Assembly: GCA_015179125.1 (NCBI GenBank)
Contig: WHVA01000210.1
Span: 116,624 to 180,623, forward strand
Direction: 5' to 3'
Length of the DNA: 64,000 bases
From: Gautieria morchelliformis
Lineage: Eukaryota > Basidiomycota > Agaricomycetes > Gomphales > Gomphaceae
Positions within the stretch are counted from its first letter, which is position 1. Every line of letters starts with the position of its first letter. The notes beneath the pieces were generated by a model that had not been told where the DNA came from, did no database searches, and was given only the letters and a program-made list of their open reading frames with translations. The position numbers and the translations under genes are program-made. This document shows, in pieces, positions 7,111 through 36,560 of the stretch.

Positions 7111-7139
7111 CCTCAAAGTGAAGCAAGCAGAGGCTGTTA

Positions 7140-8119: not shown

Positions 8120-8345
8120 CATATGCGCGCTCTGGTCGCGAACGGGTCACGTGACCGCTGCGCAGCGTTCTATGCTCGCGGCTGCGCCGCTCGACGCTGA
8201 CCTAATTTGGAACGCAAACGGTCACGTGACCATGCTGCGCAGCGTTCTTGGCTCGCGGCTGCGCCGCTCGCGTCCGATTGGCCAGCTGACTAAGGCTGAC
8301 CTAAAACCTGACATAAGCTCGACGCCCACAACCCACTGAGCTGTT
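8120..8345. repeat. Palindrome cluster next to Helitron 5' terminus
   Basis: GGTCACGTGACC occurs twice (near 8146 and 8220), each followed by GCTGCGCAGCGTTC and GCTCGCGGCTGCGCCGCTCG. The same cluster lies near 5115, 10350 and 13300, always 100-250 bp from a unit's 5' end. CACGTG is the core site of fungal bHLH proteins of the Cbf1 type. The role here is inference. Confidence 0.75.
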
Positions 8346-8359
8346 TTCATATAGTGTAA

Positions 8360-13518: not shown

Positions 13519-14131
13519 TAGGAATAGGAATATATCCGTACCCTCGCATATCACCTTCTGAATCCTCGCTGGAGAGAGAAGGGACCCATCTCCCCCAATA
13601 CAATCGGCATGCGAGAAACCTACGCAAACCACAGATAAGTACAGCAATTTGAGCCAAAGTCACCACCGTGAACTGAAAAAACGCACCTTGCATTTTCGTC
13701 ACGAACTCGTGGATATACCTGAAACAATAACTGCAGCGCCCGTCAACGTCAACGTCAGCCACCGGTGGCGCACGCAGCCGCAGCCGCAGCCAGCCATGAG
13801 AGACGCCGCACCTGCAATGCCACCCCGCATCCGCCAACACGACGTCCGTCGCCTTCGAGTGCATGTAAAGCTCACGGGCGTCCCATTCGTGTATCTGCGC
13901 GCGCCAGCTCCCCCAACCGTACGGCCACTCGAACGAGTATATGTAGTTGCGCATCTGGAGGTGCAGCGGCGACGGCGCCGCGCACGCCTTAATCAGACAC
14001 AGGGTATGCGCGGCCGGGATCTCATCCACGTCCGAGAAGACGACGAGCAGGCGCGCCTGCGCGGGGACATGCGCGTTGATCAGCGCGGTCATCGCAGCGC
14101 GCTGGTCGCGCTCGACGTCGAACGCAGTCTC
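13519..14131 (-). pseudogene. Central exons of the GT17-family glycosyltransferase gene
   Basis: On the minus strand, exon 14131-13687 encodes the GT17 core: LLVVFSDVDEIPAAHT (DxD-type metal site SDVDEIP), LQMRNYIYSFEWPYGWGSWR, and AGWHC...CSYCFRYIHEFVTKMQ. A segment between AGWHCRCG and RCSYCF is an extra CG-rich insertion unlike the family. A 67-nt intron (13686-13620) leads to exon 13619-13519 with GFSHADCIGGDGSLLSP and VICEGTDIF, where the Helitron array begins. The continuation (NMLPK...) is at 1627. The 5' exons are missing: at 14132 an LTR-like sequence starts. The family adds N-acetylglucosamine to N-glycan mannose in the Golgi. This copy cannot make the full enzyme. Confidence 0.82.
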
Positions 14132-15714: not shown

Positions 15715-17130
15715 ATGGCTGATAATGAATCGTCTCCTTTCTCCGTACTTATTGAGCGAACGCGGGTAAAGCTGAAGGTTCGCCCTGACTTTCGGGGGAC
15801 TTGCACGAAGAGGTGGAGGAATGGGTTGCCGAAGCTGAAGAGCTTCAGGTAAGAGTAGCTCTCAGATCAAGTCTTTCGCTGAACACCCGATCATAGGCTG
15901 AGCTGCGGACCACCTTGCGTGTCGAAGCGATCGCGGATCCCGACTTCGAACGTCCGTCGGATGTAGACGACTTGGTGAAGGAGGTGAAGGAAGCGAAGGA
16001 GTGGCTCGGGGGTGCAGGATTCCTGCTTAGCCCAGAGTTCCTTGATGCCGGGATGAACGCAGTGCAAGGGGCGACAGCTTCGTGGGGCCCGTCGAAGGAA
16101 GCCGAGGTAGTGGGGGATGCTGCGAAGGAGCTTGAAAGTACGTTACACGTATCTGTTTGTTTAGCCAGGCTAATTCGGAGCTCTGTCAAAGATCCTGCTC
16201 CTGTTGTTGAGCCCATCGCTGCACCACCGGAATCGCTCCGACCCTCGACTGTAGGTCCGTCAATAGGCACGAAACGTCGACCGATGTTTCTTTCGTCCGA
16301 GGACGAGGGCGACGATGCTCCGACACCGAAGAAGCCGCGCAAGGAATGCGTTCGGAGCCCTACGCCCGAGATCATCGCAGTCGAGCCAACTCCTGCCCAA
16401 TGTCGCAAGGGTCGGGCAAATGCGCTGGTTGCCGAAGCGGACAAGGTCCCGCAATCGGTGGCGAAACATGGCTACCCTGAGCATGCATATTTGCTCGGGT
16501 GGCTGATCTATCAAGGGGTAAGCAGCATCGATCTTTGTCGAAGTACTTCGCCCGCTGACTGCATGCTTCTCTGTAGCACGACATATTGAAGAGGCCTGCG
16601 AAGTGTGGGCGATGTCTTCGCTATGGTCACACCTGCAGTGGTGAGGCGGGGAAGATGTGTGGGCGATGTATTCGTGATCGCCAGGGCTGTGTCGCGGCAG
16701 AGGGTAAGTCCCCTCTTTCTCCATTCGTCCTACATCGTCCGAACTCATGTGGAGTCCTTATCCCTCCTCTAGAGTATGTGGCGAAGGACGAGAAGGATGG
16801 TCGAGAGCCAGAGGTAAAGGAGCGAGGATCGAAAGGGAAGAGTAAGGGGAAAGCAAAGGATAAGGGATTGGCGACGGGTTCGTCCTCGATTTCGTCGAAG
16901 GGCGTCCTTGGTAAGCCTGTTGAATCCGCTTCCCGAATATCTTCGGCTGATTCCCAGATACCCCCGAAGGCACCCGAACATCTACGCTGGCCGGCGAGGA
17001 GAGGGTGGAGGATCTGGTGGAGAGGTCGGAGGAGTTGATGAGGAGTGTGTCTCGAAAGCTCAACGATTTGAGCGGAGAGGTTTTAGAACTAGAGGGGGTC
17101 CAGGCGATGATCAGAAAATTAACGAAGTAG
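15715..17130 (+). CDS. Zn2Cys6 / coiled-coil protein gene, antisense gene of retroelement A
   Basis: Five exons: 15715-15848, 15897-16517, 16577-16703, 16773-16910 and 16958-17130 (TAG), with introns of 47-69 nt and consistent phases. The protein would be about 397 residues if one missing G in the G5 run near 15794 is allowed; as read, exon 1 is frameshifted. The middle holds CGRCLRYGHTC and, after 7 residues, CGRCIRDRQGC. This is an exact CX2CX6C-X7-CX2CX6C binuclear zinc cluster of the GAL4 type. The N terminus is acidic and helical (EEVEEWVAEAEELQAEL) and the C terminus a coiled coil (ERVEDLVERSEELM). It runs opposite to the gag of element A and sits where the 3' end of A is expected, as in element B. 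The target is unknown. Confidence 0.7.
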
Positions 17131-17394
17131 GGTAGGGGTTGTTGTATAAACAATCTGAACATAGGAATATTTTCTTGCATTTTTCATTTCTGTTTTTCTT
17201 TTCGAGGGTGCTTTTAAGCCTTGGGTCCCTTCGGGGGCTTCGTGTCAGTGTAGGCGAAGCTGTGCGAAGGGGGCATTCCCCCCTTTATGGTACATGTCGC
17301 CCCGACGGGTAAAATGCGTGGGGGTGATTCGGGACGCTGTTTGGGAGAAGGAATGGTTCGCTACCCTTGTCAGACGTCTGGTGGAAGAGCCGAG

Positions 17395-17905
17395 GTGTAA
17401 TAGAGTTCGTCCAATCGCTGTGTTCGGGGCGTAACCCGAGGATAGCGGGGATATGTATAAAGCGGAGGTCTGGAGGACTCGGTAGAGTTATGCTTAATAG
17501 GCCTTTGTGGAAGTAGCGAATAGTTTGCTGTCCATGTCAAACGTCTGTGCGAAAACAGGAAGATTCGGGATAGGAAAGAGCGAACAAAGAAACGACACCT
17601 GGAGGAAGATCCAAGGTGTAATAGAATCTGTCCAATCACTGTGTTTGGGGCGTAACCCGAGAATAGCGGGGACGAGTATAAAGCAGCGATATTGAGGACT
17701 CGTTAGAGTGATGCTCGATAGGCTTTTGCTGAGGTAGCGAACAGTTCGCCGTCCATGTCGAACGTCTGTGTGAAAACAGGAAGATTCCGGATAGGAAAGA
17801 GCGAACAAAGAAATGACACCTAGAGGGAGATCCAAGGTGTAATAGAGTTGTCCAATCGCCGTGTTCGGGACGTAACCCAAAGATAGCGGGGGCGAGTGTT
17901 CGGAA
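17395..17905. repeat. 220-bp tandem repeat, 2.3 copies
   Basis: GTGTAATAGAGTTCGTCCAATCGC-like starts recur at about 17395, 17614 and 17834. The copies share GCGTAACCCGA, GATAGCGGGG and AAACAGGAAGATTC. It lies between the gag end and the antisense gene of element A, where pol would be expected. Confidence 0.85.
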
Positions 17906-18240
17906 TGTATGTCGAAGGCACCTGAAGAGTGGTATGTGGGAAAACTATCTATTGAAGTAGAGTTTGTTCTGAATGAGACGGATATGTACGTGTTTGGCGA
18001 ATGGGACAAGTAGTGGCTAGTGTGTTTTTACAAGGAGGAGGAGATAGAGATATTTGTGCGAGGATTTTTGAGAACTAGGATGAGAGGGGAAAGAATCAGA
18101 GACCGAGAAGGTGTACATGGATGGGAAGAGGTGAAGGAGGCAGGATAGTCAAAGCGAACAGATACAGGGATTCATACAAAGTGGGTAAGGTCGTTGTTCG
18201 ATGGGCTAAAACGAGCCATTTTTAACACCACAGAGGGGTC
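17906..18240. other. Non-coding part of element A
   Basis: Purine-rich sequence between the tandem repeat and the gag stop codon. No reverse transcriptase, integrase or protease motif can be read on either strand. Confidence 0.5.
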
Positions 18241-18246
18241 GCGAGC

Positions 18247-19137
18247 TTAACATTCCACGGGAGAGCTTTCGCCACCTTCGGGAACCTCTTCGAGAATCGC
18301 AACCTGGGGGTCGCCTTCGAGAGTGAAGATGACTCTGCCAGTAGTTGGGGCAGACTCTTGGAAGTGGCACCCCTTCGCGTGATGTGTGGGGGTTTCGCCG
18401 CAATAAGGGCAAAGGCCTTTGGTTTTTCGTCGCTCTTTCTTGGCTTCAGTAAGACATCCGGTAGCATCGAGGATGCCGGAAAGATCTTTCTGTTCGTCGG
18501 GCTTGGCTGCGGCAGGGGGTCTGGGTCGAGCGTTAGCACGTGGTGTAACAGAAGGTTCGGAAGAAGAAGGGGGACGAATAGAGGTTGTAATCTGCTTTTC
18601 GCCTTGGCACTCCCAGTAGCGATTGTCGATGCGAAGAGCCTGACGTTTGAGATCGTCGAGGCTTTCGGGACGTTCGTAGGAGAGCATGTGGTCTTTGATG
18701 CGCTCGGCGAGGCTGTTGTAGAAGGCGTCGTAAAGGCCGGCATCGTTCCACTCGACGTAAGAGGACAACTCAGTGAATGTGGTCATGTGGCGATTGACAC
18801 GATGGGTGTTGAGCATTTTGAGCCTGCGAATAGCTCGCTCGGACACCTGGATGATGTCGGCCTGACCGAAAAGACGATTAAGTTCGTCTACAAAGATAAG
18901 CCAGTTGCTCCAAATGGGAGGTTCTGGGAACTGAATTAGAAAAGGCTGCCACCAGATCAAGGCAATGTCGCTGAGGTAGGATGCTGCGTAGGAGACTCGC
19001 TGTCGCTCCTGCTGGAACTTTCGGGGCTTGTTGTCGAAGACCATGATACAACTAGCGATGAATGTTCGGAGGAGGCGAGGTTCTTTCCCTGTGAATTTGT
19101 CAGGCTTCGCAGCATCGGAATCACCATCAGGGGCGGC
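18247..19137 (-). pseudogene. Gag of element A, C-terminal half
   Basis: Minus-strand Ty3/gypsy capsid: DKFTGKEPRLLRTFIASC, SYAASYLSDIALIWWQPF, SYVEWNDAGLYDAFYNSLAERIKDHM and RIDNRYWECQ, then a zinc knuckle variant CPYCGETPTHHAKGC (CX2CX5HX4C). It stops at TTA (18247). The frame joins seamlessly to 27203, with PQ continuing into AAPDGDSD, once the nested element B and one copy of its CTGAG duplication are removed. There is no pol downstream. Confidence 0.85.
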
Positions 19138-19142
19138 CTGAG

Positions 19143-19861
19143 TGTTACGACCGTTCATTTCTGACTTCTGACCCTCAGTTCCGCCACACCTTCCGCCCCT
19201 CCGATATTTCCGCAGCACCTTCCGCCCCTCCGATATTTCCGCAGCACCTTCCGCCCCTCTGTTATTTCCGACATTCCACCCCTTGTACATTTCCCTTGTT
19301 CTTTCGACTCTATTACTTGGACCCACCGGACCCTTTTCATCGTTCATCAAGACCATATATCCGGTCACCCTTGTAGTTCGTTGTCAGATATGTTTTCCCG
19401 ACCCCTTGTTCTTTGCCATTGTTCTACCTTACCCTGAACCCCCCTTGTAGTCCCATTGTTCCCAATAGTTAGTTCCCACGCATTGTCTACTCGACTTCCA
19501 TTTCCTCCAGAATTTGCTTGGTACCATATCATTACCTGTTGTCTCAGCTCTTTGTATAAAACCCCCTCATGTATGTCTGTTATTCTGCAATCAGATAATC
19601 GCCTTCGATACTTGATTTCCTTCGTTCCACCTCCTGTTCTTAGCACAGCGAGTCTAGCAAGATCTCAGTCTCTCCACCTTCCGTCTTCTGCCTTCCGCCT
19701 CAGTTCCGACTCAAGTTCCGACCAAACCTTTGGTTCAGTACTTTCCGACTTCCGACTCAGTTCCGAAATACTTAGGACGATAGTTCATTGGGGGCGCAAC
19801 CTACAAGTTGAAGCCGCTGTCCTTTCCAGTTCCGACTTAGCGGAAATCTCGATACGTAACA
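19143..19861 (+). repeat. 5' LTR of element B
   Basis: 719 bp, TG...CA ends, TATAAA at 19555-19560. It is 29 bp longer than the 3' LTR because of an extra CCGCAGCACCTTCCGCCCCTCCGATATTT-type repeat near 19200-19260. Confidence 0.93.
19555..19599 (+). promoter_or_regulatory. LTR promoter and inferred mRNA 5' end used as primer
   Basis: The TATAAA box starts at 19555. AATCAGATAAT at 19589-19599, 34 nt downstream, is where transcription should begin. This 11-mer is the exact reverse complement of the primer-binding site at 19864-19874. Confidence 0.75.
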
Positions 19862-19863
19862 GT

Positions 19864-19874
19864 ATTATCTGATT
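19864..19874 (+). promoter_or_regulatory. Self-priming primer-binding site of element B
   Basis: ATTATCTGATT begins two bases after the LTR end. It is perfectly complementary over 11 nt to AATCAGATAAT in the LTR. Tf1 of fission yeast is known to prime reverse transcription by pairing the first 11 nt of its mRNA to the PBS; the geometry here is the same. Confidence 0.78.
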
Positions 19875-19894
19875 CCCACCCGATAACTATCACT

Positions 19895-21288
19895 ATGCCT
19901 CCTCGTACCACAGCTACTTCAGCTCGAGCAGGAGCTGTCGAAGCTCTCTCTTATTTTGGCAGCCTTAGATCCACAGCACCAAGGCACGCGGAACCCTCGG
20001 GCAGCTCTTGTGCCGACGATGAGCTCTCCGATGCTATTCCGCAACGATTCGAAGAAGTTCCCGACGCTAATCCCGACGACAATCCCGACTATGACGGAAA
20101 CTCGACGAGTAGCAGCGGCGAACAAACAGCAGCGTCATTACGACGCCCAGCTCCACCACCACCACCTCCACCAGGACCACCTCCAGGCGGCCCTCATGGT
20201 GGCCCACCCGGCGGTCCTCCACCTCCAATTCCACCTCAGATTCCCGCCAACCCAGTTCCGCCCGCGCCAGTTCCGGATCTTGCACAAGCCATCGCCATGC
20301 TAGCCGGACAACTCCAGCACCCGGCCCAAGCACCACCACGACCCAAGACAAAGGTCCGCGAACCAGATCAGTTCGACGGTTCCGACCCCAAGAAGCTCCA
20401 GCCGTTTCTGGTCCAGCTCCAACTCAATTTCCGTGATCGCCCCGACGCCTTTCCTGACGACGAACGGAAGGTCAATTATGCCCTTTCCTATCTCCGAGGC
20501 ATGGCTCTCGACTACTTCGAACCCGCCCTCATGGATCCGTTCGCTCTTGTCGACTGGGCCGACGATTACCACAACTTCGTTTCCAAACTCCGCAGCAACT
20601 TCGGACCATTTGACATGGAAGCCGATGCGGAAAATGAACTCGATAAGCTTCGCATGAAAGACACTCATAAGATAGCTAAATATATCGTCACGTTCCAGCA
20701 GCTCGCTCCTCAAGTCCAATGGGGAGAAGCCGCACTCCGACGCCACTTTTACATGGGCTTGCCATCCTGCATCAAGGATGAAATTGCCCGCGTCGGAAAA
20801 CCCGCCACCCTTACCTACCTCCGCAACCTCGCCCAATCCATCAATTCGCGCTACTGGGAAAGACACTCCGAGATTGCTCGCGAAACATCCACCCAGAGCA
20901 AGAACGGCAAGTCTTCCGACAAGAAGTCTGACAAAGACAAGAAGAAAACCAATTCCGGAAACAACAACTCCGGAACAACAGTTCCGGATCCAACTCCGGC
21001 AACTGGAACAACAATAACACCCCTCGCAACAACCAGGCCTCTGGTTCCAACACCAACGCCTGAAAGAGCACTCCGGACCTTTCCGACAAACTTGGGAAGG
21101 ATGGAAAACTAACCCCTGTAGAACGCCAGCGTCGCATGGACAACAACCTTTGCCTTTTCTGCAGCAAAGGCGGTCACGTCGCTCACGACTGCACTCGTGC
21201 TTCCGCCTCCGCTGCCAAAGCCAAGGGCCACGCAGCAAAGACGGAAGAGAAATCCGAAGCGGCTCCCACTGCGGATTCAAAAAAATAG
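19895..21288 (+). pseudogene. gag: Gag of element B
   Basis: It starts MPPRTTATSARAGAVEAL 34 nt after the LTR. A proline-rich stretch (PPPPPPPGPPPGG) is followed by the gypsy capsid (KVREPDQFDGSDPKKLQPF, NYALSYLRGMALDYFEP, YIVTFQQLAPQVQWGEAAL, SINSRYWERHSE). Near 20965 the frame shifts by one base. The rest (SGNWNNNNTPRNNQ, then TGA at 21061, then the zinc knuckle CLFCSKGGHVAHDC) is in another frame, ending TAG at 21286. The capsid half would be made as a 405-residue product lacking the knuckle. Pol follows by a -1 shift. Confidence 0.9.
21279..21285 (+). promoter_or_regulatory. Candidate -1 ribosomal frameshift site
   Basis: The heptamer A AAA AAA is in the gag (zinc-knuckle) frame, directly followed by the gag stop TAG (21286). 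Slipping back one base enters the pol frame, which is open from there. This matches the X XXY YYZ rule. A weak downstream stem (CCTC...GAGG, 21298-21320) is possible. Confidence 0.65.
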
Positions 21289-24200
21289 TCAGCAGTCCTC
21301 CGGCCTCCGCACGAGCTGAGGGCTGTGTTGACCCCATTCGTGCGACAAACGAGGTTAAACTCAACGCATCCGCTCTTTCGTCCTCCGACTCCCTCTTTGT
21401 TCCGCTCACTTCCGACACAATTTCCGCATCCCCATTTACCGCATTGATCCACTCCGGTTTGACTCATTGTTTCCTCGATTCCGACTTTGTTTTGAAACAT
21501 AAACTTCCGACCCGCAACATTCCGACAATTCCGCTCCGCCTTTTCGACGGATCTTCCAACACGGCAATTTCTCAAGTCGTGGATCTGTCTATCCGTTTCG
21601 CTACTGGGGACAACCATGAAGTTACGTTTTACGTTACTCCGCTAGATGCTAGCTGTTCCGTTGTACTAGGACACAATTGGCTCACCCGATATAATCCGTC
21701 GATTAACTGGGCATTGGGTCAAATACAGTTCCGTACCCCGGATCAACTTCCGTCTATTCCGATGTCGTCCGCAAAGATGGCTCAGGCCTCTTCTGCAACT
21801 CCGCTTGTGGATTCAGTTCCACACTCCGGTCCCGCTTTAGCACCTCCATCCCTCGAAGCTCCTCGAATTGCGCTCGTCTCCGCCACCGCTTTCCGAGTAT
21901 TGCAACGGCAAGAAGATATGACCGTTTTCCAGCTTCACCTTTCCGACTCGGCTTCAGTCAAGGCTCGTTCCGCCTCGACTTCTGCTCCGGTCGACATGAG
22001 CTCAGTACCGGAAGAATATCGTGACTTCCCGGACGTGTTCAATAAGGCCAAAGCCGACAAACCTGCTGAACATCGACCTTACGATTTGAAGATAGATTTG
22101 GAAGAAGGAGCATCTCCGCCCCTTGGACCGATCTACTCCCTTTTGCAAAGTGAACTCCAGACTCTCCAAGAGTTCGCCGATGAACATCTCAACATGGGTT
22201 TTATCCGCCCTTCGCTGTCTCCGCACGGCGCTCCGGTCCTTTTCGTCAAGAAGAAGGATGGATCTCTCCACCTCTGCGTCGATTTCCGCAGACTCAATGC
22301 CCTCACTAAGAAGGACAAATATCCACTTCCGCGCATTTCCGACCTACTCGACACTCCCCGCAGGGTGAAGATCTACACCAAAATCGACCTCCGGCACGCT
22401 TATCACCTTGTCCGCATCCGCGAAGGTGACGAGTGGAAAACCACTTTCCGCACCCGCTACGGTGCTTTTGAGTGGGTTGTCATGCCTTTTGGTCTAACCA
22501 ATGCTCCCGCCGCTTTTCAGCGATTCATGAACGACGTATTTTCCGACCTCCTCGATGTATGCGTTCTAGTCTACATTGACGACATCCTCATTTATTCTGA
22601 CACACCGGAAAAACATCGGGAACATGTCCGCGAAGTACTCCGCCATCTACGCAAACACCATCTCTACACAAAAGCAGAGAAATGCGAATGGCATCGCAAC
22701 ATGGTTGAATACCTCAGCTACATCCTCTCTCCTACGGGTCTTACCATGGCAGAGGACAAGGTCAAGGCAATTCAAGAATGGCCGGAACCCTGACGTGTTA
22801 AGGATGTGCAGTCCTTCCTTGGCTTCGCCAACTTTTACCGGCGTTTCATTTATAATTTTTCCGACATTACTGTTCCGCTCACGCGTCTCACCAGGAAGGG
22901 TGCCCCATGGAATTTCACTCCGGAATGCCATTCCGCATTTGAAGCCCTCAAAGTGGCCTTCACCACGGCTCCCATACTCGGTTTCTGGATTCCTGATGCC
23001 CAACTTGTACTCGAAACCGACGCTTCCGACTACGCGCTAGCCGCCATTCTTTCCATCATTTCCCCTGACGACGGAGAAATTCATCCAATCACCTTTCATT
23101 CCCGCACCTTTTCCGCCCCGGAACTCAACTACGACGTCCACGATAAGGAACTACTTGTGATTTTCGAAGCCTTCAAAATTTGGAGACACTACCTCAAAGG
23201 TCCAACCCATCCGATCGACGTTGTAATGGATCATAAGAACCTTGAGTATTTTGCAACTACTAAGATTTTGACTCGCCGTCAAGTCCGCTGGTCTGAATAT
23301 CTCTCACAGTTCAACATGGTGATCCGCTTCTGCCCCGGAAAGCTCGGAGCAAAACCCGACGCGCTCACTAGACGTTGGGACGTCTACCCAAAAGAGGGAA
23401 GTAGCGACTATGCCAGCATTAATCCGCACAATTTCCGTCCAGTATTCTCTACTGAGCAACTGGCATCGTCCCTGCGTGCCACAGCATTGCAATTTCCGCT
23501 ACTCCGCGCCTCAATTATTATGGACACCGAGTCTCTCCATTCCGACATCCGTTCCGCACTCCGTTCCGACCCTATCTCCGCAGCCCACCTCGATGACCCC
23601 ACCAGTCCTGGATGGTCCCTCGATTCCGACGGATTTCTCCGGTACAAGTCCCGGATTTACGTTCCGGATACCAACGATCTACAACTTCACGTGCTCCAGC
23701 AAAGCCACGATCATCCGCTCTCAGGACACCAAGGCCAGAACAAAACCCTCGACATAATCCGACGTACCTATACTTGGCCCCTCCTCTGCACGATGGTCCA
23801 AGACTACTGCAAGTCATGCACCACCTGTATGCGAGCCAAGCCTCAACGTCACAAACCCTACGGCCTCCTGAAGCAACTCCCGATCCCGGAACAACCGTGG
23901 AATTCGATATCCATGGATTTCATTGAGAAACTTCCTAAGTCATCTGGCTATGATACCATTCTAGTGATCGTTGACAGCCTGACAAAGCAGTCCATCTTTA
24001 TTCTGACCTACGACACCATAACTTCCGCCCAGCTCGCACAGCTCTTCGTGCTTCACGTCTTTTCCAAGCACGGAATCCCTTCCCATGTCACTTCCGACCG
24101 TGGTTCCGAATTTGTGTCATCCTTTTTCCGCACACTCGGCAAGGCTCTCGACATGAAGCTCCACTTCACTTCCGGTTATCATCCCGAAGGAGACAGACAA

Positions 24201-24992
24201 ACGGAACGTACTAATCAGACCCTTGAGCAGTATCTCTGTGTCTATTGCAACTACCAACACAGCAATTGGTCCGACCTTCTTCCGCTCGCGGAATTTGCCT
24301 ACAACAATGCACCTTCCGCTACCACCGGAATTTCACCCTTTTACGCCAACAAGGGCTACCACCTGAATCTCGCCATCCACCCTGAACGCGACCTCGCCTC
24401 TGCAAGAGCCTGAGATTTCGTTGTGGAACTTGACGACCTTCATCAGCACCTCCGAGAGAACATTTCCGCTGCACAAAAGAGATATCAAACTTCCACCGAT
24501 CGGAAACGGCTTCCGCAACCGGCATTCGAGATTGGTGACAAAGTCTTTGTCAAAGCTGAAAACTTCCGCACCACTCACCCCTCGAAGAAGCTCTCCGAGA
24601 AATACCTTGGCCCTTACGAGATCATCGCCAAGGCCGGCAGTCGTTCTTTCACCCTCAGGCTTCCTGACAATATGCGTGCAGTACATCCGGTATTCCATGT
24701 CTCTATGCTTGAGCCAGCAGTTCCGAACACAATTCCAAATCGAGAACAACCTCCGCCTCCGCCAGTTGTCATTGACGGAGAACCGGAATATGAGATCTTG
24801 GAAATTCTCAACTCCAAGCTCGACAGAAGATACCGCTGCCAACTCCAGTACCTAGTCAAGTGGGCAGGCTATGAAAACACCGATGAAGAGACCTCGTGGA
24901 TTTCCGCCATGGAACTAGACCACGCCTCTGACCTCATCTCTGATTTCCACAAGTCTTATCCTGATAAGCCTGGCCCCATTTCCGCACCCTAG
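21286..24992 (+). pseudogene. pol: Pol of element B: PR, RT, RNase H, integrase, chromodomain
   Basis: All in one frame. The protease segment reads LIHSGLTHCFLD, where the catalytic Asp of D-S/T-G is His. RT has FGLTNAPAAFQRFMN and the catalytic YIDD. RNase H has LETDASDYALAAIL and YDVHDKELL. Integrase has the HHCC region (HPLSGH...CKSCTTC), the DDE triad (MDFIEK, TSDRGSEF, TERTNQTLEQ) and GYHPEGDRQTER. A chromodomain follows (EYEILEILNSK, QYLVKWAGYE, TSWISAMEL). Two in-frame TGA codons interrupt it, at 22791 (where PEP-R-RVKDVQ is expected) and 24411 (ARA-R-DFVVEL). Repair of those codons by readthrough is unlikely, so this copy is probably inactive. Confidence 0.93.
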
Positions 24993-25122
24993 TCATTTCC
25001 GACCTCATTTCCGACACCCATCCCTTTCTTACAGTTCTCAAATCATTGTTAAAATCCGATTAAATTTCCGTTACGCTAATTTCTGACATTTCAAGAAAAT
25101 TGTTACAAGTCACCCTGACACC

Positions 25123-26390
25123 CTACTCCTCCCTCATTGTCTCCACCTCAACCTCTTCCTCCGCTTCCGGCTCTTTTTCCGCCTCTCCTACCTCGACACT
25201 CACCAACTCCGTTTCCACCCTTTCCCTCGTTTCCGCCCTTTGGTTCGTACCCACTTCCGCCTTGTTCTCCTGCTCCTGCATGCGCACCTCCATGTGATCC
25301 CGGAGCAAGTCGTTCCGCCACCGGAATTCCCGCTTGAACTGTTCCAAAACCGTCGACATGACGGTCATTTGGTTTTGGAATGACAACAACTGTTGTTCCT
25401 GGACCACCGCCATCTCTGCAAGGAGGTTCCGGATCCCCCGTTGGGTTTTCTGGATGCCCCTCAAGGAATCGGCGATATCAAGCAAAGGAGATACCATGGA
25501 GAAGCAGTTGAGCACCGCTGTCTCCGAGTTTCCGGTCACCGGAAATCCTTCTGCGGCCTTCTTTCCGCTCGGTCCCGGTTTCGACTTGGGGGTTTCAGGC
25601 CCCTCGGTCTCGACCCTGCGCCTTTTCCTTTCCACCCTCACGGCACAACCGTCAACGACACAGCGCCTCTTCTTGTCCCGACATTGTTCGCAGGAAGTTT
25701 CCCACGGATTCTTGGACCACACGCAGTCCCGCCCCTTGGTTTCGCATGGGTCGCACGGGGCTTTCTCTTCTTCATCATCATCCCTCGTTTTCCGTTTCCT
25801 CGTAGCAGGATTTTCCGGCCCCAACTCCCGCAACTCCAGTATCCACATCATCTTCTCTTTCCGAGCCTTTTGGAACTCGTCCGCCCTCCATTTCCGCTCC
25901 GCAACGATGTTAGGCATGGGAGCACCTTCTTTCTGCTTCCCCTTGCCCTCTGGAGTCGGCATGCTTTCCGCACTGCTTTCCGCTTCTGACTCCCCCTTGG
26001 ATTCTATGACTCTCTGGCAGTTTTTCCGTGAGCTCCGGAACACCACACATGACATTTCCGACTCACCTGGGATTTCCCTGCCTTTTCCGCCGCGGCCTTG
26101 GCTTCCGCAGCTTTTTTCGCCACGTCCCGTTTCCGCTGCTCCTCGCGGAGGCGCGACTCTTCCTCATGGCATTTACGGCTCTTTTCCTCCATCTCCTTCT
26201 GCTCCTGCTCCCGACGCTCCTGTTCCTTGTGCTCTTTCTCCTTGCGCTCCTCCTCCAGACACTCCCTCTCTTTCCGCGTGGCTTCCTCGGCCTCACGCTT
26301 TTCGGCCAGTTCCTTCTGCGCAAGCATGTCAGCAAAATGTTGCTTCATCTCAGCGCTGGTCATTTTGGAGAAGTCGACTGGAGTGCTCAT
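25123..26390 (-). CDS. Antisense Zn2Cys6 / coiled-coil gene of element B
   Basis: Exon 1 26390-26067, intron 26066-26014 (GTGAGT...CTGCCAG, 53 nt), exon 2 26013-25123; 404 residues, no interruption. The N terminus is a highly charged coiled coil (MKQHFADMLAQKELAEKREAEE, residues 1-100). Residues around 190-225 hold CDPCETKGRDC and, 10 residues on, CEQCRDKKRRC. This is CX2CX6C-X10-CX2CX6C, fitting the GAL4 consensus, flanked by basic stretches (RVERKRRRVE). A second helical region follows (LLDIADSLRGIQKTQRGIRN) and a Glu-rich tail. It lies convergent to pol, between the chromodomain and the 3' LTR. The intact frame contrasts with the broken gag-pol. It may be a regulator of the element or of host transcription; this is inference. 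Confidence 0.82.
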
Positions 26391-26512
26391 GGTGGATCAA
26401 AAAAAAGACGCGTCTTGTTTCCCACCTATCTTTCGAACTCCGACACGTTTGTTCACAGGTCACGTGATTCCGACTTGTGGTCTCGCGGGGCTCGACCTTA
26501 GAAGGGAGATAC

Positions 26513-27202
26513 TGTTACGACCGTTCATTTCCGACTTCCGACCCTCAGTTCCGCCACACCTTCTGCCCCTCCGATATTTCCGCAGCACCTTCCGCCCCTC
26601 CGTTATTTCCGACATTCTGCCCCTTGTACATTTCCCTTGTTCTTTTGACTCTATTACTCGGACCCACCGGACCCTTTTCATCGTTCATCAAGACCATATA
26701 TCCGGTCACCCTTGTAGTTCGTTGTCAGATATATTTTCCCGACCCCTTGTTCTTTGCCATTGTTCTACCTTACCCTGAACCCCCCTTGTAGTCCCATTGT
26801 TCCCAATAGTTAGTTCCCACGCATTGTCTACTCGACTTCCGTTTCCTCCGGAATTTGCTTAGTACCATATCATTACCTGTTGTCTCAGCTCTTTGTATAA
26901 AACCCCCTCATGTATGTCTGTTATTCTGCAATCAGATAATCACCTTCAATACTTGATTTCCTTCGTTCCACCTCCTGTTCTTAGCACAGCGAGTCTAGCA
27001 AGATCTCAGTCTCTCCACCTTCCGTCTTCCGCCTTCCGCCTCAGTTCCGACTCAAGTTCCAACCAAACCTTTGGTTCAGTACTTTCCGACTTCCGACTCA
27101 GTTCCGAAATACTTAGGACGATAGTTCATTGGGGGCGCAACCTACAAGTTGAAGCCGCTGTCCTTTCCAGTTCTGACTTAGCAGAAATCTCGATACGTAA
27201 CA
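26513..27202 (+). repeat. 3' LTR of element B
   Basis: 690 bp, TGTTACGACC...ATACGTAACA, preceded by the purine tract AGAAGGGAGATAC and followed by the CTGAG duplication. It carries the same TATA box and AATCAGATAAT as the 5' LTR. Confidence 0.93.
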
Positions 27203-28527
27203 CTGAGGGTAGGCGAAAGGAAAGGGATAATAGGGGTTCCATGGGAACCCTGATTGCGGCCAAGGCCCTCCACCAAAGGGTGGAGGTGGGCCAGGAGGTC
27301 CGGGGGGCCCGGGTGGTCCGGGAGGCCCGATCGGAGGTACTCCGAAATGGGGAAATGGTGGCCCGAGAGGTGGTGGAGGAGGCGGTGCAGGCCTGCCAGG
27401 TGGGGCAGGAATCTGTGCCGGGGGTTGCTGCGGGGGAGGTCGTCCTGCGAAGGGGAGAGGCTGTCCCGCGAATGGAAAAGGCGCAGGCCCGCCAGGTGGG
27501 GCAGGAATCTGTGCCGGAGGGTGTTGTGGGGAGGTTGTCCTGCGAAGGGGAGATGTTGTCCCGCGAATGGAAGAGGCACAGGCCCGCCAGGTGGGGCAGG
27601 AATCTGGGCTGGAGGTTGGTACAGGGGAGGTTGTCCCACAAACGGGTGAGGTTGTCCTGCGAATAGAGGTGGGGCACTACCGAAAGGTAAAGCATTCGGG
27701 TCATAATAGGGTACGCCAGTAACGGGATAGCCAAGATTTTGCTCAGGCGCAGGGTCAGCGTGATGTTCCTGGTCCGCCACAGGTGCCTCGCAAGGGGGAG
27801 TGGGTTGAGAGCTGGCTCGAGTATGGTCACTATGTATTGAATGGTGAAGACTGCGAAGAGCCTGCGAAGAGTGTGAGGAAGCATGTGAGTGATGCGAATG
27901 AGATGAAGAATTGTGCGAAGCGGGTGTGCGAGCCCAAGATTCTACGTGTACAGGAGTGGTTTGCCTAGAATTGAGAGGAGATATAGGCTGGGGGTTAAGA
28001 GGACGCTGGGCATAGTGCACATCGAGAAAGGGGTTCGGAGTATGACTAGGCGAAGCAGGTGGCAAGTGGGGTCGTGCGAAGGCCGATTGTAATCGGAGTC
28101 CTGAAGTACTGACAATCTGAGGAAGCCTAGAAGGATAAGGCCCTTGAAATGTGCTAGGGTCCTGTAGGCGACCACTGGGCGAATTAGGGGCAAGTAAGCG
28201 GTGTAAAGAATTGGCACTGGGTCGATGACTAGATGTGGGGGTGTTGGCTGAGAGTGGTCGCTGAGGGGAGAAGTGTTGTTCGCCTGGAGTCAGCTGCTGT
28301 TGAACGTCAAAATGAGGCGGAGATGCGTGTTCGGGGACCGGATGATGTGGTGTAGGCTGAGATGCAGACATGGCGACGAGGCGGGAGAAAGGGATGATGT
28401 CCTCTGTGGGATTTTGTGAAGGGAACGAGGCGGAAGCTGTTCGCCTCTGGAGTGGTGCTGGGGTCGGAACCGGACCTGTCGAGCGAGTTCTATGGACGAC
28501 AGGGTTTTCTTGTTGTGTAGATGACAT
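27203..28527 (-). pseudogene. Gag of element A, N-terminal half
   Basis: It begins MSSTQQENPVVHRTRSTGP, 32 nt after the end of the 5' LTR. It is a long proline/serine-rich disordered region (SQPTPHHPVPEHASPP, HNSSSHSHHSHASSHSSQ) ending in collagen-like PPGPPGPPGPP repeats. A one-base shift near 27525 splits it into two frames; the second frame leads to NPYYPFPFAYPQ at the insertion point of element B. The full gag would be about 738 residues. Confidence 0.8.
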
Positions 28528-28558: not shown

Positions 28559-29212
28559 TGTTAGTTCAATTATACTGTCAAGATTGGTTTTTAGGCGTTA
28601 ATATCGTGTATTAGTGAACACAGCGAATGCCCGAATAACTTGTGTGAATAAGTATGCCGTTCGGCGAATAGGTGAACCGATGAATGTTCACGAAACAAGA
28701 GGGTTGCCCGAACAGGGATTGCCCTACCTACAGTCATAGCGAAATAGCTCGCAGCACTTGACGACGTAACGTACAAGATATCACGGAAGGGCTGTCTAAG
28801 TTTCGATGGTCGCTTCGCTGGCAAAGGTGCTCCTTCAGAGCCCTTCGCCAACAGCACAGAAGATAGTTCGAAGGCTAAGGTAATGAAGATGAAGTATGAG
28901 AACTCACCAGTGATGCCTAAGTCCTTGGCTGGTTGAAGATAGAAATCTTCAAGGAGAGGCTCAAGACGATGATCACAGCGAGGTCAAGTTTGCACAAGAT
29001 GGACGACGTATGATAATTGAACTGGGGAATATACATGCGAATGTAAACTACTTATATCGAATGCTCGTAGGGCATCAGCGAATAGGAAAGAGGCCGTCAC
29101 AGGTCAGGGTTGGATTGGGGTGCGCAGTCATGATACTAGGTAGATGGAATAAACATACAATAGAGTGAGGGAAGAATGCGAATATGAAACGGCAGAGAGT
29201 AAAGGGGGTGAA
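28559..29212 (-). repeat. 5' LTR of element A, inner part
   Basis: In minus orientation the LTR ends ...GAACTAACA at 28559. After two bases follows TACAGTCAAAGC (28556-28545). It matches 11 of 12 positions of TACAGTCATAGC on the plus strand at 28729-28740, so it is complementary to that part of the LTR transcript, a weaker self-priming signal. Outer LTR sequence continues at 35448 after nested element C. Confidence 0.6.
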
Positions 29213-29425
29213 TGTAAGGGCAACCCTGACTAGTTGTGGAGATCACACTACCACACAACTGACAAGGGGAAATCCAAAGTATGTATAAATGAACGGAGTA
29301 TACAAGAGAGGGGATTCTCACCTGACAAGGGGAAATCCAAAGAGAAAAGTTTAAGGACCCCCCAATGTCAGCGAGCCCGTATTATACTACGCTGCGCAGC
29401 CAGGGACAACACTTGGCACCCGCCA

Positions 29426-32400
29426 TCAACCCTGCATCCCCCTGACCCTTGATCGACCCTTGATGCCATCTATTATGCGAGTCGCTTGATTTCCGACACT
29501 GTTCCGGGAGTGGAAGTCGGAAATTGGAGTGGAACTGGCAAGGCGAACAGAACTGGTGGAAGTTCTCCCAGAAGCGGAACCATTTCCGAAAGCGGAGGCG
29601 GAGATGGAATCAGAACCGGAAGCGGAGTTGGAAATGAAGTCGGAACTGGGTGTGGTGTCGGAACTGGAAATGGAAAACAGGGTGTCCCCTGACATCACCC
29701 CCCCTCTAGCGTGCTGCGTCCTCGAAGCACGGGACACGAGGGATTGAAATGCCAGCGAGCGGATTCGGCGGGGGGCACCGGGATGCGTCCTATAGAACTC
29801 ACAGAGTTTGTCTGGAGCGGAAACATCTTGCTCCGGGACCCACGAATTCTCTTCGTACCCATACCCTTCCCATTTCACGAGGAATTGGAGTCGTCCTCGC
29901 ACAAACCGGCTGTCCAGGATCCGTTCCACCACATAGTGCTCTTCCCCATCTACAATTTCCGGCGTAGGTGGCGGATGAGCCTTCCGACCTGGAATTGGGT
30001 CTTCAAGCATAGGGAGTAAGTTCACCACGTTGAAGACGGGGTGGAGGCGTGACATGGACATCGGAAGTCAGAGGCGGTATGCATTCCGTCCAACCCTCCG
30101 CGTCACTGTGAAGGGCCCAAGGTAGCAGTGGGAAAGCTTCTGCGAAGGGCGTGTGGTGCGGATGTCACTTGCATCTAGGTACACCTTGTCTCCAACTTGG
30201 TACTCCGGGGCAGGAACCCGGCGTTGGTTGTAGTACCTTGCCATGTCATCCTTGGCCTTCGCAAGGGCCGACTTGGCTTCCGAAAGGGTGGAGTCCATGC
30301 GGTCTCGGAACTCATTGACCGTCTCGAGTTGGGACTCTGCCTGGCGTGGTTCGAAGCCCATCCGCGGGTGTCGTCCGGAGTCGAGCATGAAGGGAGTCTG
30401 TTGTGTGGCGGAATGGACATGGTTGTTGTATTGGAATTCCGCCAGCGGAAGTAATTCATCCCAGTCATCCTGCCTCTCATTGACAAAGAGGCGGAGATAT
30501 TGCTCCAACTCCTGATTGACCTGTTCCGTCTGTCCGTCACCCTGCGGATGGTACGCTGTGGTGGTAGCCAGCTTTATGCCGAGCAGTCGGTAGAGCTCCC
30601 GAGTCAGTTCCGTGACAAACTGCGGACCTCGGTCGGAAACAACTTGCTTCGGGAGCCCATGCAACTTCCAGACATGTGCAAGGAACAGGCGGGCCGCTCC
30701 GAGGGCTGTGATCGTCGTGTGCGTCGGAATGAAGTGGGACACCTTGCTTACTGAATCCACGACGTTCATGATCGCATCGTAGCCATGAGACTCTGGGAGT
30801 TCAACGATGAAGTCGACACTGATGGTGTCCCAGCGGGACTTGGGAATCGGAAGCGGAACAAGTTCTCCGATGGGCGGATGTCGTTGCGCTTTGGTTCGGA
30901 GACAAAGGTCACACGTCTTCACGTACTGTCCGATGTAGCGGGACATCTGAGGCCACCAGTAATTCCGAGCCACTAACTCCAGCATCTTCCACCTGCCAGC
31001 ATGCCCAGCGACCCGTGTGTCATGGTGCTGGGACACGATGCGACGGCGGAGGTCTGCCCCACCTGGAACATAGACCTTGCCTCTGAAGTGGAGCAGTCCA
31101 TCACGTTCCGACCATTCTGCTGCCCGTACAGACCGTGAGTGCCCTTTCCGGAGTTCCTCCACTGCCTTCACCACCGACTCCTCCTTCTCTCCATTCCGGT
31201 ACTGCCTCCGGACATCCCGGAGCATTTCCGCTTCCGCCCCAACTGCAGTCACTCCTTCTAGGGCACGGATTGCAAAGAGACTTGGGGGGAGCAGTGTCAT
31301 ATCCGCGTTGTCTCCACTTCCGCTTCCATGATCTGCGCGGCGGGATAGGGCATCGGGCTTTCCCATGGTGCGGCCGGGGCGGTGGTGGAGCATGAAGTCA
31401 AACCGGGACAGGTGTAGGGACCACCGTGCTTGTCGTCGGTTTAGCTTCTTAGACGTGCGGAAATACTCGAGGTTCTTGTGGTCTGTCCAGATCTCAAAAG
31501 GGCATAGAGCACCCTCGAGGAAGTGTCGCCACTCCTCCAGCGCTCGGATGATTGCCAGCATCTCCTTGTCATGGATCTCATAGTTCCGCTCGACCGGACT
31601 AAGGCTCTTAGAGAAGAAGGCAATCGGATGCCACCCCCCATCATCTTCCGATGACTGCTGTGACAAGACCGCTCCGGTAGCTGCGTCGGAAGAATCCGCC
31701 TCGACTCGATAAGGGCGAGAGTCGTCGGGAGAGATCAGGACCGGGGCGGAAGTGATCAGCTCCCTGAGTTTGTCAAAGGAAGCCTGTTCCGGCTCTCCCC
31801 ACCGCCATCCAACCTCCTTCTTGGTGAGGTCGAAGAGGACACGGGCGTGGCAGGAGAAGTCCCTGATGAACCGCCGGTAGAAATTGACAAACCCAACGAA
31901 GGACTGGACCTCCTTCTTGTTTCGCGGCACGGCCAGTCCGATACACCGGAAACTTTGACGGGGTCCATTTCCACCTTTCCTTCCGACACAATCACCCCAA
32001 GATACTCTATCCGTGTCCGCTCAAATTCGCACTTTTCCGGCTTGAGACACAGGTTGTACTCCCGGAGCCGTTCCAGCACTCTCCGCACGACTTCCCGATG
32101 TTCGGACATTGTTTTTGTGAAGATGAGGATGTCATCGAGGTAGACGCAGACAACCCCTTCTGCTATCATGTCGCGGAAAATGTCATTCATCATCATCTGG
32201 AACGTGGCGGGACTGTTGGTGAGGCCAAAGAACATGACCTGTGGCTCAAAGAGTCCTCGGTTGGTGCGGAATGCGGCCTTCCATCGTCTCCCTCCCAGAT
32301 CCGGACATTGTTGAAGCCCCAGCAGACATCCAGCTTAGCGAAGTACCTCGCCCCGCGGAGTTGTGTGATCAGTTCGGAAATGAGTGGAATGGGGTACCGG

Positions 32401-33610
32401 TTCTTGATCGTGATCGCATTCAAGGCCCGGTAGTCCTGCACAAGTCTGAGCGAGCCGTCCTTCTTCTTGATGAAGAACACCGGAGATGCCATGGGTGACT
32501 TGGAGGGGCGGATCCTCCTTGTACGGAGGTTTTCCGCAAGGAATGCACCAAGCTCTACCTGCTCCTTGGGTAACAGCGGGTAGACTTTGCAGTTGGTGGG
32601 CTTTGACCCAGGCTCCAACTCGATGGCGTGGTCCCACAGCTTCCGTGGAGGCAGGGTATCAAACGACTCCTTGGAAAAGACGTCCTCGAACTCTCGCAGG
32701 TACTCCGGAATTTCCGCCTCTACTCTATCATGCCTTTTGGAGGCTTCAGCAAGGCGTTGCGAAATATTTCCGGTGGCGCGGATTTGTTCCACTTCCGGCG
32801 GAAGGTTTACGTACAGCAAGCGCTCCCCTTCCGCCAGAATGTCTTCCGGGCCGAGTCGGATGACGTCGGAATCGGAATCGGAATCGGAAGTGGGATCCGG
32901 TTCAAATTCCGCTTCCGAGGCTTCTTCTGCAAGCAGTGGATGGGGGCCAGAACGACATGTCTGTATGAGCCGTTCGGTCTTCCGCTGCTCCTGGCGCTCC
33001 TTCCGCGCTTCCGACCTGCACATGTGACACTTGGCTGGACATTGACTCATCAGTACCTTCCGCGTCTTCCAATTGATCTCCGGGTTGTGCTCCTGAAGCC
33101 AGGTAAACCCGAGGATGATGTCCTGCTTCCCCAGGCTGGTGACTGCGAAGGAAGTGCGTTCTGAGTGTCCATCGTAGCGGAGAATTGTGTCTACTATCTC
33201 CATGATGGACCCTGCCTCATTGGGGCTTCCATCCACATTGAACACCGGGATTGCATGTTGCAACTTCCGCGTGGTCAGTCGGTTCCGTTCCACATAGCCC
33301 CGATCCATAAACTGACCAGTGGCCCCACAATCGACAAGGGCGGGTCCGGATTTGACTTCCGCCGTATCTGTCGTCTGGATCTGCACCTTAATGACTAGTG
33401 ACTTGGGGCCAGGGGTGGCAGCAACAACATAGCGCTTCGGAAGGCGTCTCTCCCAAGGGCGGATGCGGGATGGATGGGGTGTCGGATTTGGTTTTTGTGT
33501 GACTTTATCCGGTGGGTCTGTACGAAGTGAGGGGTGTGGGGGCTTTCATTCTCTACTTCAAGACAGGCAAACCGGTTATGTACAGGCAGCAGGGGCACAC
33601 ATCTCACCCG
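29426..33610 (-). pseudogene. pol: Pol of element C
   Basis: Protease PALVDCGATGQFMD (33330 region); RT split by one-base deletions near 32285 and 31920, with catalytic VYLDD in between (FFGLTNSPATFQMMMN); RNase H (VEADSSDAATGAVLSQ, EIHDKEMLAI); integrase (HDTRVAGHAGRWKM...CDLCLRTKAQRH, VDFIVELPES, VSDRGPQFV, TEQVNQELEQYL); TGA at 30068 after NAYRL; then a chromodomain (EHYVVERILDSRF, FLVKWEGYGYEENSW). The frame runs into the 3' LTR before stopping. Confidence 0.92.
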
Positions 33611-34778
33611 CTGCGTGTCACAAAATCCGACGCATCTTCCGCTTCCGGTGGACCATGTTCCGCATTTTCGGAAATTCCTTCCGCAGTGGGCACTCCGCTT
33701 ATGTCCGCAAGCACGAGGAACTCTGGAAGAAGCTCGAGTTTCTCCTCCGTGGTCATAAGCCGGATGTCAAAGGCTTGGGGGCACTCGCGAGCATAGTGGC
33801 CTGGTTGTCGACAGCGGAAGCAGGTGATAGTTCCGTGGCCTTTTCCGCGCATGCGGTCAACATCCATCGGGGCAGGGCCACTCTTCGAGGGAGGGGGCTA
33901 TGGTTCCTAATAGGAGCAGGCGGAGCAAGCATGGGAAATATTTTCCGTGTGGGAATGAATGCGCTTCCGGGTTTTGACACAGGTGGAGTAGGACGAGTGG
34001 AACTGCGTGTCATGTTCCGGCTCGTCTCTACGAAGGCCTCATTTGCTTCCCTGTTCCGGGACACCCTCTGTGCAGCTCGGTACCACCCTTCCGGGTCATC
34101 AAAATCCGGAGCTCCATCCCCAAGCAGCGCAACTTGGTTCTGGAGTGTCGGATCAAGTCCTCGTCGGAATTTGATGACAAATGTCTTGTCGTCGTCATAT
34201 TCCGCAAGGTCGATGAGCTCCTGGAAGCGATCGATGTAGTCGTCGACCGGATCCTTGGCCTGGTACCAGCTTGTCCCCTCGAGCTTCGTAAGGGCTGTGA
34301 GCTGCTCGTTTTTCGGGCAGAACTGGTCGGAAAATGTCTTCTCGAAGGCGTCCGAGTCCCGGAAGTAGTTCCCCTTGCCCTTTGCTTCATGTCGGATCAC
34401 CTTGTTTGCAAAACGGGCTGCGTGGTCCGATTTGAAAAAGGACAATGTCCAGTGAATCCGAGCCTGGTCGTTTGGAAAGAGGTCTCCGACAATTGCGAAG
34501 TAGATGCTGCATGTGTTGAAGAATGCGCGTCCCTTCTCCCGATCTCCGTCAAAGTCCGCCGGAGTTGCGGGTTTGACCTTTGCTAACTTCGCGGACTTTC
34601 TCTCTTCCGCTAGTTCCACTTTTCCAAAATCCGGATCATCCAGCATTTCATTTCCACCACTTTGTGGAATATCTAAGTTAGCCAAGATCACTTGTAAGGC
34701 TGTTTCAATCGCGTCGGTCTTCATCCGGTTCCGCGTCAATTCCTCCTCCATATTCCGAAGACGATCATCCGGATCCAT
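33604..34778 (-). pseudogene. gag: Gag of element C
   Basis: MDPDDRLRNMEEELTRNRM, capsid segment (FFNTCSIYFAIVGDLFPNDQ, SFFKSDHAARFANKV, DPVDDYIDRFQELIDLAEY, KFRRGLDPTLQNQV), then a one-base shift near 33885. The zinc knuckle CFRCRQPGHYARECPQAFDIR is in the other frame, ending VTRSG-stop. The homologous gag in C2 is intact, so the break is specific to this copy. Confidence 0.9.
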
Positions 34779-34953
34779 GTTGGAAGGAGAAATATGGGAC
34801 GGGATTTCCGAGGTTGGGAGCTCGACGTAAGAAGAGGGGCTGTCGTATGCTGTGTGTGCGGAAGAGGTTGCGATCTCCGAGTCGCTGTCTCCGATTCCGA
34901 ACGCACCTATGGCAGCTGCAACGCGCAGTACGACCGCTGGTCCTCTAGGGGAG

Positions 34954-34963
34954 AGACTTTTCT
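34954..34963 (-). promoter_or_regulatory. Self-priming primer-binding site of element C
   Basis: On the minus strand AGAAAAGTCT starts two bases after the 5' LTR end (34966). It is exactly complementary over 10 nt to AGACTTTTCT inside the LTR (35105-35096), which lies 34 nt downstream of TATAAT (35139). The arrangement and spacing are the same as in element B. Confidence 0.75.
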
Positions 34964-35447
34964 GCTGTAAGGGAAACCCTGACTAGTTGTGGAGATCACA
35001 CTACCACACAACTGACAAGGGGAAATCCAAAGTATGTATAAATGAACGGAGTATACAAGAGAGGGGATTCTCACCTGACAAGGGGAAATCCAAAGAGAAA
35101 AGTCTAAGGACCCCCCAATGTCAGCGAGCCCGTATTATACTACGCTGCGCAGCCAGGGACAACACTTGGCAGCCGCCATCAACCCTGCATCCCCCTGACC
35201 CTTGATCGACCCTTGATGCCACCTATTATGTGAGTCGCTTGATTTCCGACACTGTTCCGAGAGTGGAAGTCGGAAATTGGAGTGGAACTGGCAAGGCGAA
35301 CAGAACTGGTGGAAGTTCTCCCAGAAGCGGAACCATTTCCGAAAGCGGAGGCGGAGATGGAATCGGAACCGGAAACGGAGTCGGAAATGGAGTCGGAACT
35401 GGGTGTGGTGTCGGAACTGGAAATGGAAAACAGGGTGTCCCCTGACA

Positions 35448-36547: not shown

Positions 36548-36560
36548 CGCCCCCTCAAGC

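Follow-up and report, generated by a model that had tools for sequence, protein, structure and literature searches.

Antisense zinc-cluster genes and family-specific 5-mers in two retrotransposon families of Gautieria morchelliformis: a possible self-recognition system

We analyzed a window of 64,000 nucleotides (nts) from the basidiomycete Gautieria morchelliformis (positions 116,624 to 180,623 of contig WHVA01000210.1, assembly GCA_015179125.1; all coordinates below are those of the window). Two long terminal repeat (LTR) retrotransposons in this window, elements A and B, each carry an additional gene that is oriented opposite to gag, lies on the 3' side of gag and encodes a protein with a six-cysteine zinc cluster. 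These antisense genes are element-borne and, judging from their sequences, probably spliced. An initial annotation had noted a GAL4-type cluster in their products and regarded a regulator that binds the LTR or recruits chromatin factors as possible; as an observation it was confirmed in part, and its interpretation found partial support. The organism's own genome assembly comprises 122 Mb in 1113 contigs.

Element B is a gypsy retrotransposon on the plus strand (19143-27202), flanked by the repeat CTGAG at 19138-19142 and 27203-27207 (several computations took its end one base beyond 27202). Self-comparison, sequence inspection and a motif count gave a 5' LTR at 19143..19861 (+) with 15 copies of TTCCG and a 3' LTR at 26513..27202 (+) with 14, and the two LTRs differ at 18 of 690 sites. 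According to the list of open reading frames (ORFs), gag (19895..21112, +) is an open frame of 405 aa, and pol (21150..24992, +) consists of three open stretches in one frame, separated by a first stop at 22793 and a second at 24413. The pol tail looks chromodomain-like by eye. For the middle pol stretch, 4897 relatives were found among the 7989 candidates scored in a protein database, with identities of up to 75%; PF00385 is listed for several of them, and the named relatives among the matches listed belong to Pisolithus, Meripilus, Trametes, Antrodiella and Pleurotus. Two scans of the viral_contigs set found no relatives of B pol. Elsewhere in the window, a piece at 2256-2882, lying in a stretch with an observed/expected CpG ratio of 0.52, is ~81% identical to the B LTR and may be an older B relic or a relative.

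The antisense gene of B (25123..26390, minus strand) lies between pol and the 3' LTR, and the annotated product of 404 residues was recovered as an open spliced frame with one intron. Exon 1 (26390-26067, -) encodes a Glu/Lys/Arg-rich helix, and exon 2 (26013-25123, -) a basic stretch, the zinc cluster, a helical stretch and an acidic tail; helical and coiled-coil stretches of both antisense proteins were judged from composition alone. The 53-nt intron (26066..26014, GTGAGT...CCAG) is one of seven frame-preserving candidates and alone among them has a GTGAGT donor; its splice sites are retained in aligned copies (GT in 32/32 and AG in 30/32). Its identity among the copies (0.918; window 26014-26066, also L010-L038 and L069-L071) is higher than that of the exons (0.846 and 0.866), which is unusual for an intron.

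Element A is a minus-strand element, and its gag is interrupted at 27203/19142 by the insertion of B. The first gag part (27203..28527, -) was identified from the ORF list and an A-type gag search; the second (18247..19142, -), also from the ORF list, contains a CX2CX4HX4C knuckle and yielded 150 matches in the own genome, the best 150 of 1481 candidates. The 5' LTR of A (28576..29212, -) is matched in L042, L058, L069, L075 and other loci. The interval that separates gag from the antisense gene lacks pol and contains imperfect tandem units of ~220 bp (17378-17897) that vary among copies. The frames of the window and of other copies place the A antisense gene at 15715..17130 (+), with several exons, an ATG at 15715 and a TATA-like CTTTAAAAGGCG upstream of the ATG that is present in copy L042 too. 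A product of about 397 residues, as annotated, could not be reproduced, since more than one intron interrupts the gene and the window copy departs, in exon 1, from the frame kept in other copies. Both genes had been placed near the 3' LTR: this holds for B; in A the position opposite gag stands, but homology of the window copy to other copies ends at 15603, while copy L042 continues for ~750 bp to an A-type LTR.

A pattern scan located the cluster of B, CX2CX6C-X10-CX2CX6C, at 25755..25660 (-; CDPCETKGRDCVWSKNPWETSCEQCRDKKRRC) and that of A, CX2CX6C-X7-CX2CX6C, at 16604..16690 (+; CGRCLRYGHTCSGEAGKMCGRCIRDRQGC). They are the only two matches in a six-frame scan of the window with linkers of 5-12 residues. 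A chance origin was considered and rejected, as none of 60 simulated windows with the same dinucleotide make-up contained the pattern. The pattern is kept in 32 of 33 B copies, window copy included, and the six Cys and two Lys are invariant in a 14-row B alignment. Twelve of the 14 B members match the Pfam Zn_clus profile at E values up to 1 (best, 1.7e-4), and A scores 10.9 bits. The second half of the B cluster (ORF residues 120-132) aligns to profile positions 1-13, and A residues 2-18 align to positions 16-31 at E 0.52. These alignments suggest that the two halves of the cluster stand in the reverse of the GAL4 order; the sign of this is clear in B and weak in A. The annotation of an exact GAL4-type cluster thus holds for the cysteine spacing; the order of the halves and a window-copy score under the Pfam cut-off do not agree with it. 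With GAL4-type Zn2Cys6 regulators the proteins share the six-cysteine spacing, a basic CxxCRxKKxxC half and helical stretches; they differ in the order of the halves, the sub-threshold score and the antisense location in retrotransposons. The basic half of B is CEQCRDKKRRC, in which KK sits where GAL4 has Lys17 and Lys18; the A counterpart, CGRCIRDRQGC, lacks KK. In a database of 5.8 billion proteins, which does contain 75%-identical relatives of B pol, no relative of the B antisense protein was found, neither among 493 scored candidates nor among 7713 in a further search. A search of solved structures gave a single, meaningless match at E 8.7.

Both genes are traits of families rather than of single copies. 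The exon-2 search for B returned 138 rows (the best 132 of 719 candidates scored), and the cluster search for A returned 93 matches from 105 candidates, all scored. The expected linkage of homologs to LTR elements was borne out in the own genome: an LTR lies beside the antisense gene in all 30 B loci examined, window copy included (L038 has only a 149-base LTR piece), and the pol end is present in antisense orientation in 27 of the 30. For A, a gag of A type lies on the opposite strand and no more than 6 kb away in at least 52 of the 93 matches, and the arrangement is different in one (the gag list being the best 150 of 1481 candidates). The median offset from gag to the A antisense gene, 2.1 kb, leaves no room for pol.

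We calculated nonsynonymous to synonymous rate ratios (dN/dS) by NG86 on the best-matching copies, the pairs of which are not independent. The median for B exon 2 is 0.21 (435 pairs, 30 copies, three with stops), compared with 0.16 for the B pol end (253 pairs, 23 copies, seven with stops; in 7 of 30 loci the pol match is missing or too short). The cluster exon of A gives 0.074 (30 copies, six with stops) and its other exons 0.18-0.34 (22-27 of 30 copies, one to seven with stops). Both antisense genes are under purifying selection, which in A is strongest at the cluster exon. Selection had been proposed earlier on the ground that the B frame is intact although gag-pol is broken. That hint carries little weight, because with LTRs diverged at only 18/690 sites the probability of no new stop is 0.65, counting substitutions alone; the proposal itself is upheld by the ratios across copies. 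It is very improbable that the gene is a captured host gene with no function in the element. No database relative reveals its origin, which would suit such a passenger; against it stand the dN/dS values (0.21 in B, 0.07-0.34 in A), the conserved splice sites and cysteines, and retention in two families, one of them without pol. That A lacks pol and yet retains its own gene, along with a 5-mer of its own (below), suggests that the gene serves something family-specific.

Among 23 copies, synonymous divergence is 0.52 in the B antisense gene and 0.19 in the pol end. The gene falls into two clades, drawn by eye from the cluster region, with a synonymous divergence of 0.63 between and 0.31 within clades; the corresponding values for pol (0.19 and 0.18) and for LTR distance (0.079 and 0.071) hardly differ. 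The B antisense gene has probably been exchanged among element backbones. We also looked for covariation of sequences flanking TTCCG with the two protein clades and saw none.

Further examination of sequence composition revealed that each family is enriched in a particular 5-mer. The sense strand of B contains 107 TTCCG versus 16.9 expected, and the opposite strand 26; the highest count in 300 simulations was 27. TTCCG is the top 5-mer in 30/30 B loci and in L069-L071. The gag strand of A contains 36 TTCGC versus 8.7 expected, and TTCGC/GCGAA ranks third or higher among the 5-mers of 28 of 30 A loci, the exceptions being L041, in which TTCCG ranks second, and L051. Densities of TTCGC and TTCCG per kb on both strands are 7.9 and 1.9 in 29 A loci, and 1.3 and 15.1 in 30 B loci (16.5 TTCCG in element B itself), so that the two tags are mutually exclusive, each being near background in the other family. 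Overall, A carries its tag at 8-9 per kb and B at ~15-16 per kb. The same densities are 1.8 and 15.9 in a third family, gypsy family C, 1.6 and 1.6 in a copia element, 1.05 and 0.39 in gypsy family D (L080 and L081), 1.8 and 2.0 in the host loci L001-L008, and 1.4 and 0.9 in window 44500-64000. The commonest spacing of TTCCG in B is 12 bp in the same orientation (8 pairs versus an average of 1.5 per spacing).

The tag is not confined to LTRs. Compared with 500 synonymous shuffles, TTCCG is in excess in B gag (9 versus 2.05, reached by none), in the three pol stretches (20 versus 7.9, 19 versus 4.9 and 6 versus 2.5, reached by 0, 0 and 3) and in antisense exon 2 (14 versus 7.3, reached by none); the excess in exon 1 is weak (4 versus 2.0, reached by 33). 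In A, the first gag part has 13 TTCGC versus 5.7 (0 of 400 shuffles), and the second part a weak excess (23 and 18 of 400 shuffles); the two A antisense stretches tested show no tag excess over synonymous shuffles.

We also compared TTCCG sites across 32 B copies. In the antisense exons they are kept in 0.679 of cells, versus 0.453 for other CG-containing 5-mers and 0.459 for all 5-mers, and in the 3' LTR in 0.730, versus 0.655 and 0.673. At 18 tag sites of the antisense gene, codons are identical in 318 of the 437 cells with unchanged amino acids, versus 236.9 expected. In simulations that ignore shared ancestry, copies would hold 11.7 TTCCG per B antisense gene; they actually hold 19.0 (20 in B, 13.75 shared). 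The same simulations give 10.2 for the 3' LTR and 4.3 for the pol end, compared with 13.2 and 5.7 in the copies; measured by the spread of a single simulation, these two differences amount to no more than ~1.6 and ~1.2 standard deviations. For the A antisense gene (22 of 29 copies), GCGAA amounts to 6.7 versus 4.1, and TTCGC to 4.2 versus 2.7. In B, the tag excess goes beyond synonymous-codon expectation and is maintained while individual sites turn over.

These results bear on the improbable alternative that the 5-mers are products of mutation or codon bias, such as escape from CpG or TCG hypermutation, and have nothing to do with the gene. Both tags contain CpG, observed/expected CpG ratios are high in the tagged families, and TCG-directed hypermutation has been reported in some basidiomycetes (PMC12730594). 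However, B gag, pol and exon 2 exceed synonymous shuffles, each family favors one particular 5-mer, the tag is kept up through turnover, TCG occurs within the tag of A but not of B, and B stripped of its tags still has a CpG ratio of 0.90. The ratio resembles that of genes in the tagged families (1.0 in B loci, 0.96 in A loci, 0.87 and 0.92 in C; 0.94 in host loci) and is low in copia (0.57) and D (0.52). CpG content of the tagged families fits escape from methylation, and age alone could explain it. CpG transitions occur at 2.0 times the non-CpG rate in B and 1.6 times in A, and the host genome contains methylase-like exons (three matches).

Family C (29213..35447, -; LTRs at 29213-29694 and 34966-35447; parts also in L072-L075) bears TTCCG and CGGAA in numbers without strand bias (41 and 58), at a total density like that of B and beyond synonymous expectation. 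A chromodomain search of the own genome scored the best 150 of 2658 candidates, and frames of >1400 aa were common among them; most of these matches would belong to family C, if four fetched loci are representative. Within the 7.6 kb of gypsy D examined, both a tag and an antisense zinc-cluster gene are absent, and the copia element has no 5-mer tag. An own tag is therefore present in both families with the antisense gene, and one of three families without it is tagged, with the tag of B. The copia element (36003-41300, -) has terminal repeats ~99% identical to each other and interrupts another gypsy element, a relative of family C.

Another idea is that the tag works in RNA: UUCCG of the sense transcript would serve as a signal for packaging, export or stability, and the role of the antisense protein would be a different one. 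The marked preference of the tag for one strand in B (107 versus 26) and its spread along the whole transcript would favor it; family C, with the tag on both strands at nearly the same total density as B (15.9 versus 16.5 per kb), speaks against it, and we hold this account to be improbable as well. In a less remote, though still unlikely, alternative, the protein would control transcription from the LTR or from its own promoter, either as an activator or as a copy-control repressor, and a host factor exploited by several gypsy families would read the 5-mers. Fungal zinc-cluster proteins typically regulate promoters, the B LTRs contain 15 and 14 tags, and family C is tagged without having the gene. 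On the other hand, A and B reside in one genome and differ in both tag and protein, coding sequence overall is as tag-dense as promoters would need to be, and the tag is present in 2/2 gene-bearing families.

From the sequences, the antisense protein is best read as a regulator that would bind DNA and act on the element. It probably targets more than the LTR, because the family 5-mers occur in LTRs, gag and pol and, in B, also within the antisense gene itself. The reading that we favor, while giving it a little less than an even chance, is that two LTR-retrotransposon families have in the antisense gene a functional accessory gene, used for self-recognition and anti-silencing through their own 5-mers. 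The antisense transcript would yield a zinc-cluster protein that dimerizes through its helices and binds the 5-mers of its own family in duplex DNA as address tags; the bound protein would coat the element, open or demethylate its DNA and keep transcription on. Self-recognition of this kind would spare host genes, as for VANC, and family C would use the B protein in trans. That the protein reads the tag, with all that follows, is suggested by analogy. VANC21 of Arabidopsis binds YAGTATTAY, which is described as dense and in one orientation in VANDAL21 and rare in other elements, and causes methylation loss of the VANDAL21 family (PMC5735166); likewise, each zinc-cluster protein would bind the tag of its own family. 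Lys18 of Gal4 is described as contacting the guanines of CGG (PMC5559640); the B tag, TTCCG, contains CCG, and the A tag, TTCGC, lacks CGG.

Several observations weigh against accessory self-recognition. An order-3 model, which includes the enriched 4-mers, already gives 86 of the 107 tags of B and 26.9 of the 36 of A. In A, only the first gag part clearly exceeds synonymous shuffles, and in B pol TTCCG is not conserved in excess (0.710 of cells in 32 copies, versus 0.712 for other CG-containing 5-mers and 0.735 for all). The tag of B favors one strand, although binding to duplex DNA would need no such bias, and the two B protein clades have the same tag and flanks. Family C bears the B tag although an antisense gene would not fit into it, which speaks against strict coupling, and only two gene-bearing families can be compared. 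With respect to the protein, the window copy of B scores 15.8 bits (14.9 with a longer ORF) against the Zn_clus cut-off of 21 bits, and the cluster is not its best-conserved part (cluster blocks 0.83-0.86 identical, other blocks up to 0.93). Finally, window 2001-3500, with the B-like LTR relic, has a CpG ratio of 0.52, so that CpG content may reflect age.

Comparison with known systems helps to place the accessory self-recognition that we propose. As with the VANC proteins of Arabidopsis VANDAL elements, as described in PMC5735166 and PMC10398659, an element-encoded protein goes together with a motif that is dense in its own family, rare elsewhere and mostly in one orientation, and related families have different motifs. 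Here, restriction of each motif to its own family holds between A and B and relative to copia, D and host loci, and is broken by family C, which has the motif of B without the gene. According to the same descriptions, VANDALs are DNA transposons with motifs in non-coding tandem repeats, whereas the present elements are LTR retrotransposons with motifs scattered through coding sequence too; Pfam scans of the antisense proteins detected no VANC-like domain. The antisense additional ORFs of LTR retrotransposons presented in PMC7264820 share position, orientation, retention in many copies and a presumed nuclear role. B agrees with them in having its gene between pol and the 3' LTR in many copies, and in A the gene lies opposite gag without pol. 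In the passages of that review concerned, those ORFs are without a zinc cluster, show no clear similarity save for a transposase-28 domain in Retand, and are not mentioned with a family-wide tag. brtn, an antisense gene of Boty-like gypsy elements in Botrytis cinerea that PMC7264820 and PMC8365987 credit to Zhao et al. (2011, Virology), is likewise an extra antisense gene in a fungal gypsy element; its host is an ascomycete. TET/JBP dioxygenases carried by fungal DNA transposons are, in the account of PMC12730594, also element-encoded factors thought to counter methylation; they are enzymes and have no family-specific tag there. A TET/JBP search of the own genome matched neither such genes nor a control, so that its negative outcome does not speak for their absence. 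A literature search found no system such as the one proposed here in titles or abstract openings, subscription papers, including the brtn study, being mostly outside the search.

A bolder version, which we offer with distinctly less confidence, is that LTR retrotransposons of this fungus independently evolved self-recognition with an own 5-base address every 60-130 bp, coding genes included, that is read by a swapped-half antisense zinc-cluster protein maintaining the activity of its own kind alone; pol-less A would keep its own reader and address, and the abundant family C would be a cheater on the address of B. If so, self-recognition through scattered motifs had at least two origins, one among DNA transposons of plants and one among retrotransposons of fungi. 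Saturation of coding sequence with a motif would then constrain retrotransposon evolution in a new way and would also provide an easy marker by which to find further such systems. Functions of antisense genes in LTR retrotransposons are described as unknown in the review PMC7264820; the tag names a predicted binding site for each protein and makes this question directly testable.

Other parts of the window have features of their own. Window 44500-54200, which includes an NLR-like ORF, has a CpG ratio of 0.30-0.32. The NLR-like region (51159-54109, -) comprises an ORF with patatin-like and nucleotide-binding-like parts followed by an ORF whose TPR-like repeats are nearly identical, with tandem DNA repeats of ~80-84% identity (domains named by eye); the CpG ratio of the region is 0.30. 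In window 5500-13500, two long repeats (5505-8364 and 10675-13522) are 89% identical and rich in short tandem repeats, which give rise to long chance ORFs in several frames.

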